A stretch of 59,096 nucleotides of DNA, taken from assembly GCA_913009315.1 (NCBI GenBank), contig CAJVZA010000002.1, positions 1-59,096 of the forward strand, given 5' to 3'. The translations under genes were made by a program, and so were the position numbers. The notes below the pieces were generated by a model. The model ran no database searches. It worked only from the letters and a program-made list of their open reading frames with translations, and was not told the origin of the DNA. Origin of the DNA: an uncultured Hippea sp. (lineage in GTDB: Bacteria > Campylobacterota_A > Desulfurellia > JAADFJ01). Positions 4,085-59,096 of this stretch are shown here, piece after piece (position 1 is the first letter of the stretch; each line of letters opens with the position of its first letter).

Positions 4085-4350
4085 ATGCCTATGATACACT
4101 GAGACTGCCGCGGCCTTCGGCCTCGCAGTGACAGAAAGAAAAAGTCATTGCCTTGGATATTTTCTCTCTGTCATCGTAAGCATTTTCCCCCTCCGTCATT
4201 GCGAGCGAAGCGAAGCAATCTCAGTTTCTTCAGTGTATCACAGGCATCCTGCCTGTTCTTTTCTTCTGTTCCGCATTTGAGAAAAGATGTTAAGAAAATC
4301 TTCTGATGAAGCGTATAGAAAATTAAGGGTAACTCTGATGGCCGGATGCT
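4085..4350. repeat. Interspersed palindromic repeat (GCGAGCGAAGCGAAGCAATC type)
   Basis: Contains GTCATTGCGAGCGAAGCGAA and then GCAATCTC, a palindromic repeat seen in many unrelated bacteria, plus GCCGCGGCCTTCGGCCTCGC. The stretch from 4195 through 4350 matches the complement of 57197-57045 nearly base for base. This gives an inverted pair of ~150 bp at the two ends of the window. A shorter relative lies at 56701-56752. Confidence 0.8.
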
Positions 4351-56700: not shown

Positions 56701-56752
56701 TACCTGTGATACACTAAAGAAGCTGAGATTGCTTCGCTGCGCTCGCAATGAC
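56701..56752. repeat. Interspersed palindromic repeat, short copy
   Basis: ACCTGTGATACACTAAAGAA followed by GCTGAGATTGCTTCGCTGCG and CTCGCAATGAC: same family as at 4085-4350 and 57045-57197. Confidence 0.75.
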
Positions 56753-57005: not shown

Positions 57006-57197
57006 AGAATCTTCAAAGAATATAAAGCCCGAAGGGAAGCATACTGCCCTCAGAGTTACTCTTAATTTTCTATACGCTTCATCAGAAGATTTTCTTAACA
57101 TCTTTTCTCAAATGCGGAACAGAAGAAAAGAGAACACAGGCAGGATACCTGTGATACACTAAAGAAGCTGAGATTGCTTCGCTTCGCTCGCAATGAC
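57006..57197. repeat. Inverted copy of the 4.2-kb repeat
   Basis: The complement matches 4195-4353 and, beyond the ~104-bp insertion present there, 4458-4480 (GGGCTTTATATTCTTT). This copy appears to be the uninterrupted version. Confidence 0.78.
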
Positions 57198-57533: not shown

Positions 57534-57721
57534 TTACCTGATATGTCTAATATACGATGACAGTGGTGGCCTTTTTGTGAGAACTATATTTCTATATCTT
57601 CTCAATATTCTTCTTATCTGCCTATCTGTAATATTAAGCAGTCTTGCTACATCTTTAATCTTAATCTGTCCTGCATGCACTTCTTTAATAACCGACAATC
57701 TGTTAACCTTTTTTCACTCAT
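57534..57721 (-). pseudogene. Frameshifted N-terminal remnant of an ISNCY-like transposase
   Basis: From ATG 57721 the frame reads MSEKRLT, then after a +/-1 shift continues LSVIKEVHAGQIKIKDVARL and LNITDRQIRRILRRYR before a TAA at 57534. This is the typical first HTH of ISNCY/integrase-core transposases (L-x-V-I-x-x-V-x-x-G...L-x-I-S/T-x-R-Q-x-R-R). The catalytic domain is absent. Identity is by motif only. Confidence 0.5.
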
Positions 57722-57843: not shown

Positions 57844-57871
57844 TTGACAAGCAGCATAACAATCATATATT
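57844..57871 (+). promoter_or_regulatory. Promoter of the PAS-LytTR gene
   Basis: TTGACA (57844-57849), 16-bp spacer, TATATT (57866-57871), ~90 bp before the start codon. Confidence 0.55.
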
Positions 57872-57965
57872 AGTTAATATAGTTTACAATAAAGCATGTT
57901 GAAAAGTCACGCTGCAGGCAAAAGCTGATATTATTCTTTTTCATAAGATACAGCAAGTAAATATA

Positions 57966-58688
57966 ATGAAAGAAAAGAATTTAGAAAAATTCCTAAAAAA
58001 ATTAGACATTGCGTTTGTTTTTGTAGATAAGGAAATGAATCTTATCTATGCAAATCGTCATGCCATAAAAAGACTGTTTCATGATAAGCCCGGATTGTTT
58101 TATGGCAAAGACATTAGAATGATTCATAGCAAATACGCAAAAACTAAAATCAATCAAATTTATAAAAAATCAAATAAATGCCATTATAGCGATAGCGATT
58201 TACCATTTATTAAATTGATCAATGAAAAAGATAAGACCATTATGTATCTTGTAAAGATTGACAAAGCAATAGATAAAAGAAATGAATTTAGCGGATTTAT
58301 TCTATCCTTTTTTGACATTTCATCAGTTACAATTAACCATGTAACACAACAAATGGAAAAGATTCCGGTAATAGGCAAAAAGAATAGAATTGAACTTGTA
58401 GACATAAATAAGATTGTTTATATCCGTTCGGATAGAGGATGCAGTCTAATAAAAGATACGGAAAATAACTTATATAGAGTTAATCTGACGTTGAATAAAT
58501 TGGAAAACAGGCTTAGTTTAGACGGTTTTTTAAGAATTCACAGATGCTGTATTGTCGCACTAAAATATATAAAAAGTATAAAAAGGGTCAAAGACAATAC
58601 CTTTGCAGCGGAGCTTATTTTTAACCATGATTTGCTGCCGGTTAGCAGACGCCAGTATTACAAACTAAAAAAGATTTTTTCAGTTTAA
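57966..58688 (+). CDS. PAS-LytTR single-component regulator, RcoM-like
   Basis: 240 aa, soluble. Residues ~8-120 are a PAS domain (IAFVFVDKEMNLIYANRHA, FYGKDIRMIHSKYAKTKI, ILSFFDISSVTI). Residues ~132-240 are a LytTR DNA-binding domain (IPVIGKKNRIELVDINKIVY, FLRIHRCCIVALKYIKSI, LLPVSRRQYYKLKKIF). This layout and the segments IHSKYAKTKI and KIPVxxKNRIxLVDxxxIV resemble RcoM, a heme-PAS LytTR regulator that activates CO-oxidation genes. H54 falls where I recall the RcoM heme His; C72 may match its redox-sensitive Cys; a Met ligand is not clearly placed (M93 is a candidate). It has its own promoter and is followed 182 bp later by a nickel permease. Confidence 0.82.
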   Translation: MKEKNLEKFLKKLDIAFVFVDKEMNLIYANRHAIKRLFHDKPGLFYGKDIRMIHSKYAKTKINQIYKKSNKCHYSDSDLPFIKLINEKDKTIMYLVKIDKAIDKRNEFSGFILSFFDISSVTINHVTQQMEKIPVIGKKNRIELVDINKIVYIRSDRGCSLIKDTENNLYRVNLTLNKLENRLSLDGFLRIHRCCIVALKYIKSIKRVKDNTFAAELIFNHDLLPVSRRQYYKLKKIFSV

Positions 58689-58720
58689 TTTCCACTAAGA
58701 GCCAATATATTACCGCTTAT

Positions 58721-58764
58721 CTTTCAAAACAGACAATTCAAGCCTCAAAATATACATTTCAATA
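58721..58764 (+). promoter_or_regulatory. Candidate LytTR-binding direct repeats
   Basis: Four TCAA motifs at 58724, 58738, 58745 and 58759. They form two pairs at exactly 21-bp spacing (TTTCAAAA/CCTCAAAA and ATTCAAG/TTTCAAT), the two-turn direct-repeat geometry typical of LytTR sites. They end ~16 bp upstream of the -35 box, a place suited to activation. Confidence 0.4.
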
Positions 58765-58779
58765 TTATTTATTGCTCTA

Positions 58780-58807
58780 TTGACATCTCTTATATAATAA
58801 TTATATT
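58780..58807 (+). promoter_or_regulatory. Promoter of the nickel permease gene
   Basis: TTGACA (58780-58785), 16-bp spacer, TATATT (58802-58807), about 63 bp before the GTG start. Confidence 0.6.
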
Positions 58808-58870
58808 TTATTTAAAGTATTGTAACCTAACTAAATCTTACGTAATTATTTAGGGGGGAAATGATTTAAA

Positions 58871-59096
58871 GTGTTCAGCCTAAAGAAAAAAACATCAATC
58901 ATGATAAGTTTTCTTGTATTATTCAATCTAATCACATGGATATTGTTTTTTGCAATTACCAAATTTGACCCTTCACTTTTAGGCTTGGGTGCATTGGCAT
59001 ATTTCTTCGGTTTAAGGCATGCATTCGATGCAGATCATATAGCTGCAATAGATAATGTAACAAGAAAACTGAGGCAGGATAATCAGAAACCTGTTA
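58871..59096 (+). CDS. NiCoT-family nickel/cobalt permease (5' fragment)
   Basis: The first 75 codons are present; the gene runs off the right edge. GTG start at 58871, with a GGGGGG tract 12 nt upstream (spacing long). The first membrane helix spans ~10-29. The family signature is complete: LRHAFDADHIAAIDN with H50, D55 and H56 (HX4DH, the metal-selectivity site in helix II). These permeases import Ni2+ or Co2+ for urease, hydrogenase, CO dehydrogenase or B12. Which metal is used cannot be read from this fragment. Confidence 0.9.
   Translation, partial: MFSLKKKTSIMISFLVLFNLITWILFFAITKFDPSLLGLGALAYFFGLRHAFDADHIAAIDNVTRKLRQDNQKPV

Follow-up and report, generated by a model that had tools for sequence, protein, structure and literature searches.

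At the end of a contig from an uncultured Hippea sp., a gene for a PAS-LytTR protein directly precedes a gene for a NiCoT permease (nicO), and this arrangement raises the question of whether a CO-sensing regulator of the RcoM type controls nickel supply in this organism, as was proposed in the initial annotation of the sequence. The window, by which is meant the whole stretch of DNA analyzed, is the complete contig C2 (59,096 bases) of a 1.74-Mb draft genome that comprises 96 contigs and is 87.6% complete. The features of the locus are collected in the table.

Table. Features at the right-hand end of the window (positions are those of the window)
Feature	Position	Strand	Basis
Promoter-like site of the regulator, TTGACA-16-TATATT, 11/12	57844..57871	+	Consensus match only
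PAS-LytTR one-component regulator, RcoM-like, 240 aa	57966..58688	+	Pfam and homology
PAS domain, residues 6-118	57981..58319	+	Pfam PAS_10
His54 codon, column of the RcoM proximal heme His, same residue in all relatives	58125..58127	+	Alignment
Lys83 codon, column of the RcoM distal Met, invariant in 7 Desulfurellales proteins	58212..58214	+	Alignment
LytTR DNA-binding domain, residues 141-238	58386..58679	+	Pfam, 1.7e-17
TTACCGCTTAT, candidate LytTR-type half-site	58710..58720	+	Pattern match, suggestive only
Promoter-like site ahead of nicO, TTGACA-16-TATATT, 11/12	58780..58807	+	Consensus match only
nicO (NiCoT permease), 75 N-terminal aa including HAFDADH, truncated at the contig end	58871..59096	+	PF03824
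127-base tail identical to the C22 nicO copy; assembly junction, continuation collapsed	58970..59096	+	Comparison with C22

The regulator combines an N-terminal PAS domain (27.5 bits for PAS_10 against a cut-off of 22.1) and a C-terminal LytTR domain, both above the Pfam cut-offs in one polypeptide, which is the layout expected of an RcoM, and it is the sole LytTR protein detected in the assembly. Among plasmid proteins it matches a cox-adjacent RcoM best (25% identity over 82%, 9e-9), and the top three plasmid matches are a Paraburkholderia protein encoded next to the genes for aerobic CO dehydrogenase and two Caballeronia relatives of that protein. The similarity of the PAS domain alone to that of RcoM is weak (BLAST E 0.005; hhalign E 5.5e-6), and a comparison of the same domain with the PAS profile of the relatives described below gives E 7.5e-15, clear of 942 other ORFs. 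The RcoM homology proposed in the initial annotation is supported over the C-terminal half of the PAS domain and the LytTR domain.

In RcoM (B. xenovorans numbering), we take His74 to be the proximal heme ligand and Cys94 to be the ligand of the ferric form. His54 and Cys72 of the window protein lie at the positions first assigned to them, and His54 aligns with the RcoM heme His and is invariant in the seven Desulfurellales proteins; it should be noted that an L-H motif at this position in a PAS domain is not specific to heme domains. The expectation that a Met or Cys second ligand would also be conserved did not hold. The column of RcoM Met104, the distal ligand that is displaced by CO and a residue named in the reference list of PMC9670170, is occupied in all seven proteins by an invariant Lys (Lys83), and Cys94 has no counterpart, the relatives having no Cys and Cys72, unique to the window protein, lying two columns off. 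Because the distal Met104 is not retained, the regulator is called RcoM-like, on the basis of its shared architecture and context, and not an RcoM in the strict sense. The invariant Lys at the Met position is new and marks a sub-family of RcoM-like regulators.

The lack of both the distal Met and the Cys would also be compatible with a PAS domain that senses something other than CO (redox state, a flavin or small molecule, or heme in a different role), in a family that regulates nickel-enzyme clusters accordingly. The Pfam placement of the domain in the general PAS_10/PAS_9 families can be read in the same way, although this placement is in itself neutral on heme, neither for nor against, and so can the unspecific Foldseek matches of the low-confidence PAS model, which include flavin PAS domains (NifL, LOV), a heme PAS domain (DosP), and others alike. 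In the AlphaFold model of the regulator the LytTR domain is confident, but the PAS domain has pLDDT <50 around His54; a search by sequence for a solved RcoM structure found none. A non-CO signal is nevertheless considered unlikely, since the conserved His stands where RcoM has its heme ligand, and the RcoM homology, together with the consistent place of the family ahead of cooF-cooS in six genomes, favors CO.

These six genomes come from a phylum set of 25. Full-length homologs of the regulator, with about 27-33% identity, are present in six other Desulfurellales metagenome-assembled genomes (G014, G015, G016, G017, G020, and G023), and the family profile, run against 386 genomes, gave no further full-length homolog, the matches outside the phylum being almost all to the LytTR domain with a few to PAS only. 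In all six relatives the next gene after the regulator encodes a CooF-like ferredoxin (cooF), and in five of them cooS follows cooF; in G023 the contig ends inside cooF and the assembly lacks cooS. The CooS of G016 scores 736 bits against TIGR01702 (cut-off 478), and those of the other relatives are 78-98% identical to it. The order in G016 and G017 is a NikR-like ribbon-helix-helix gene, the PAS-LytTR gene, cooF, cooS, NuoE-, NuoF-, and NuoG-like genes, a gene for a CooC-type ATPase, nicO, and then the hydrogenase small subunit gene (G016) or hypF (G017). In every coo cluster where this can be checked (six, including that of G022), nicO lies downstream of cooS. The regulator is present in six of the seven genomes with coo genes; in the remaining one, the contig begins 86 bases ahead of cooF. 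It is present in none of the 17 genomes that lack coo genes, a count that leaves out the genome of the window. The Fisher p-value for this co-occurrence is 5e-5 without the latter genome and 2.6e-4 with it, values that overstate independence because genomes of one family are related. Since the regulator heads Ni-CODH clusters that include nicO, nickel import would be part of the CO-oxidation gene set in Desulfurellales, and nicO as a conserved member of RcoM-like/CODH clusters in this order is new.

Two further observations were made in the relatives. NikR-like ribbon-helix-helix genes with a divergent C-terminal part (L030 3046-3444, L028 7446-7814, and L040 2734-3177) lie upstream of the PAS-LytTR gene in several of them, and in G015 such a gene precedes a second copy of nicO. 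The PAS-LytTR gene itself has a second, degenerate or truncated, copy in two relatives, on G015:C152 (L031 3428-4142), where the copy carries many stops, and on G014:C53 (L063 1090-1443), both behind a molybdopterin-oxidoreductase (formate-dehydrogenase-like) cluster.

In the window the adjacency of regulator and permease was found as initially described, a pairing that is rare; the two genes are separated by 182 bases and are not an obvious operon. The nicO gene starts at a GTG codon and encodes, before the contig ends, the first 75 residues of what would be an eight-helix permease, including the HX4DH signature noted earlier (HAFDADH at 59018-59038); even this fragment matches NicO (PF03824) with 57.4 bits against a cut-off of 27.7, and the complete copy on contig C22 scores 296 bits. 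The promoter-like site ahead of nicO is near consensus, and a promoter of this kind needs no activator, which counts against a strict need for activation. A candidate target for the regulator is TTACCGCTTAT, which lies 22 bases past the regulator stop codon. Its pattern has no other exact match in the window, and counterparts are found just past the regulator stop codon of G016 and of G020. This is no more than a lead, because the pattern was picked after looking and G016 and G020 belong to one genus. A scan of the intergenic regions for LytTR direct repeats, compared with shuffled sequences, gave no significant result and no statistically supported site pair.

Because the contig ends at 59096, the DNA to the right of the permease cannot be read on it. 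The last 216 bases of the window match the start of the second nicO gene, on C22, with three differences, and the final 127 are identical. An assembly graph built with k = 127 would leave just such an identical tail, exactly 127 bases long, at a fork, and the continuation of the window nicO has therefore probably been collapsed into C22 by the assembler; no continuation was found on the other contigs, and nicO sequence occurs at these two places only in the genome. Untrimmed Illumina P5/TruSeq adapter, often after a poly-T run, is present at the start of C22 (L126 37-94), and about eleven further contigs, C28, C15, C8, C73, and C16 among them, carry it at their ends.

The nicO gene on C22 heads a NiFe hydrogenase operon with genes for the small and large subunits, a cytochrome b, a maturation protease, HypF, and HypB, which, except for the large subunit, were named by eye from their sequences; apart from the enzyme to which this large subunit belongs, no NiFe hydrogenase was detected in the genome. 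The order ilvD/nicO/hydrogenase is also found in the congener G001 and is for that reason regarded as native to the genus. The window nicO is closer to the C22 copy (98.6%) than to that of G001 (93.5%), a pattern consistent with recent duplication or gene conversion. A graph fork common to C22, in an assembly with adapter at many contig ends, might instead have produced the regulator-nicO junction as an assembly or amplification artefact. This is very improbable, in that the window nicO differs from the C22 copy at three sites within 58881-58969, one of which replaces Glu with Asp, and diverges further upstream, where start codon, ribosome-binding site, and promoter are all its own, unlike in a simple chimera; moreover, regulator and nicO share one cluster in the relatives.

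The initial annotation had suggested a search of the genome for a Ni-dependent CO dehydrogenase, and here the relatives and the genome of the window part company: the orthologs in the relatives head cooF-cooS clusters that hold nicO, but in the genome of the window the regulator is not beside CO-oxidation genes, and the 87.6%-complete assembly has no match to PF03063. Neither CooS nor the hybrid cluster protein HCP was detected in this genome or in G001 and G002, both of the same genus, which also lack the regulator. Because CooS is absent from this assembly and from those of two congeners, the link to CO in the genome of the window is by descent only. A regulator-nicO pair in a genome with no detected CODH is new.

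It is possible that a missing region of the genome holds the CODH, as the contig breaks at this point and the draft of G023 likewise has the regulator and cooF and no cooS. The locus would then be an ordinary RcoM-CODH locus with a rearranged order, its full CO cluster lying past the end of the contig or in a part of the genome that the 96 contigs lack, and it should be recognized that the contig stops in a repeat, with exactly one 127-mer common with C22. Such a hidden cluster is doubtful, if the least so of the alternatives considered here: the coo genes lie between regulator and nicO in the relatives, whereas nicO is directly next to the regulator here, and the two congeners also lack CooS.

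The sequence upstream of the regulator contains two of the three near-identical copies of a short dispersed repeat, GAAGCTGAGATTGCTTCGCTGCGCTCGCAATGAC (56719-56752 (+), 57164-57197 (+), and 4195-4228 (-)), within a degenerate stretch, and a remnant of a transposase-type helix-turn-helix, KKVNRLSVIKEVHAGQIKIKDVARLLNITDRQIRRILRRYRN, at 57537-57713 (-). The degenerate character of these 1.4 kb, with their repeats and transposase-like remnant, is a feature that might be expected if the regulator were the leftover of a lost CODH cluster, beside nicO by accident and controlling nothing useful. The failure to detect CooS, the lack of both regulator and CODH in the two other genomes of the genus, and the degenerate regulator copy on G015:C152 point in the same direction. 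The frame is, however, intact, with a near-consensus promoter and all of the residues that are invariant in the alignment of the relatives, and the gene retained or acquired next to it is the very permease that belongs to the cluster of the relatives, so that a functionless remnant is judged quite improbable.

The interpretation that accounts best for these observations, and that is considered reasonably probable, is that the window encodes an RcoM-type one-component regulator from a CO regulon that includes nickel import, here with no detected CODH. The N-terminal PAS domain most likely binds heme via His54 and responds to CO, CO acting through PAS-bound heme being the most likely signal by descent because the family heads Ni-CODH clusters. 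The output of LytTR domains is DNA binding; the C-terminal domain would thus bind DNA and, with CO present, most likely activate nicO, a possible further target being a hydrogenase operon beyond the contig end. In this group as a whole, nickel uptake is probably under CO control, and the conserved gene order would tie nickel import to the CO regulon in vent sulfur reducers; if confirmed, this would mean that the supply of the metal is coordinated with the arrival of the substrate of the enzyme that requires it. A more specific proposal, in which a lineage without CODH has its nickel import controlled by a CO sensor whose heme pocket is of the His/Lys kind, is tentative and rather unlikely. Were it true, CO would signal that more nickel is to be taken up for the NiFe hydrogenase, and the CO regulon would have been cut down to its metal-supply arm.

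The heme PAS-LytTR activator of cox genes, RcoM of Paraburkholderia and B. xenovorans, has the same one-component layout as the window regulator, with about 25% identity over 82% and the position of the heme His kept. The window protein differs in having Lys83 for Met104, in belonging to a family without Cys94, and in its shorter N terminus, and its gene adjoins nicO, not cox genes. The NiCoT permeases (HoxN/NixA/NicT; PF03824, TIGR00802) have the same HX4DH signature, and the C22 copy has a high-scoring NicO domain; unlike those encoded beside NikR or hydrogenase genes, the window nicO, of which the first 75 residues are present, follows an RcoM-like regulator. The circuit had been thought not to have been described previously, and this can be upheld in part: no report that assigns a nickel permease to an RcoM regulon was found in the literature searched, but RcoM next to Ni-CODH is already known from Geobacter (PMC4703632), Deferribacter (PMC6896113), and Rubrivivax (PMC4257681). 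The clusters of Geobacter sulfurreducens (GSU2099-2095; PMC4703632) and Deferribacter autotrophicus (CODH-I; PMC6896113), with the makeup rcoM-cooS-cooC-cooF-FNOR, resemble those of the Desulfurellales relatives in that the genes for a monofunctional Ni-CODH are headed by one for a PAS-LytTR regulator. However, electron transfer in the Geobacter and Deferribacter clusters is by FNOR, where the Desulfurellales clusters have NuoE/F/G-like genes, and the former, as described, list no nickel permease or hydrogenase. The CODH-II cluster of D. autotrophicus has NuoE/F/G-like genes like those of Desulfurellales, but without rcoM (PMC6896113). A parallel to the arrangement in the window is that in R. 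rubrum, in which rcoM adjoins cowN, a non-CODH gene (PMC4257681), so that an RcoM gene likewise lies beside a CO-related gene other than that of CODH; cowN protects nitrogenase from CO, whereas the neighbor in the window is a nickel importer.
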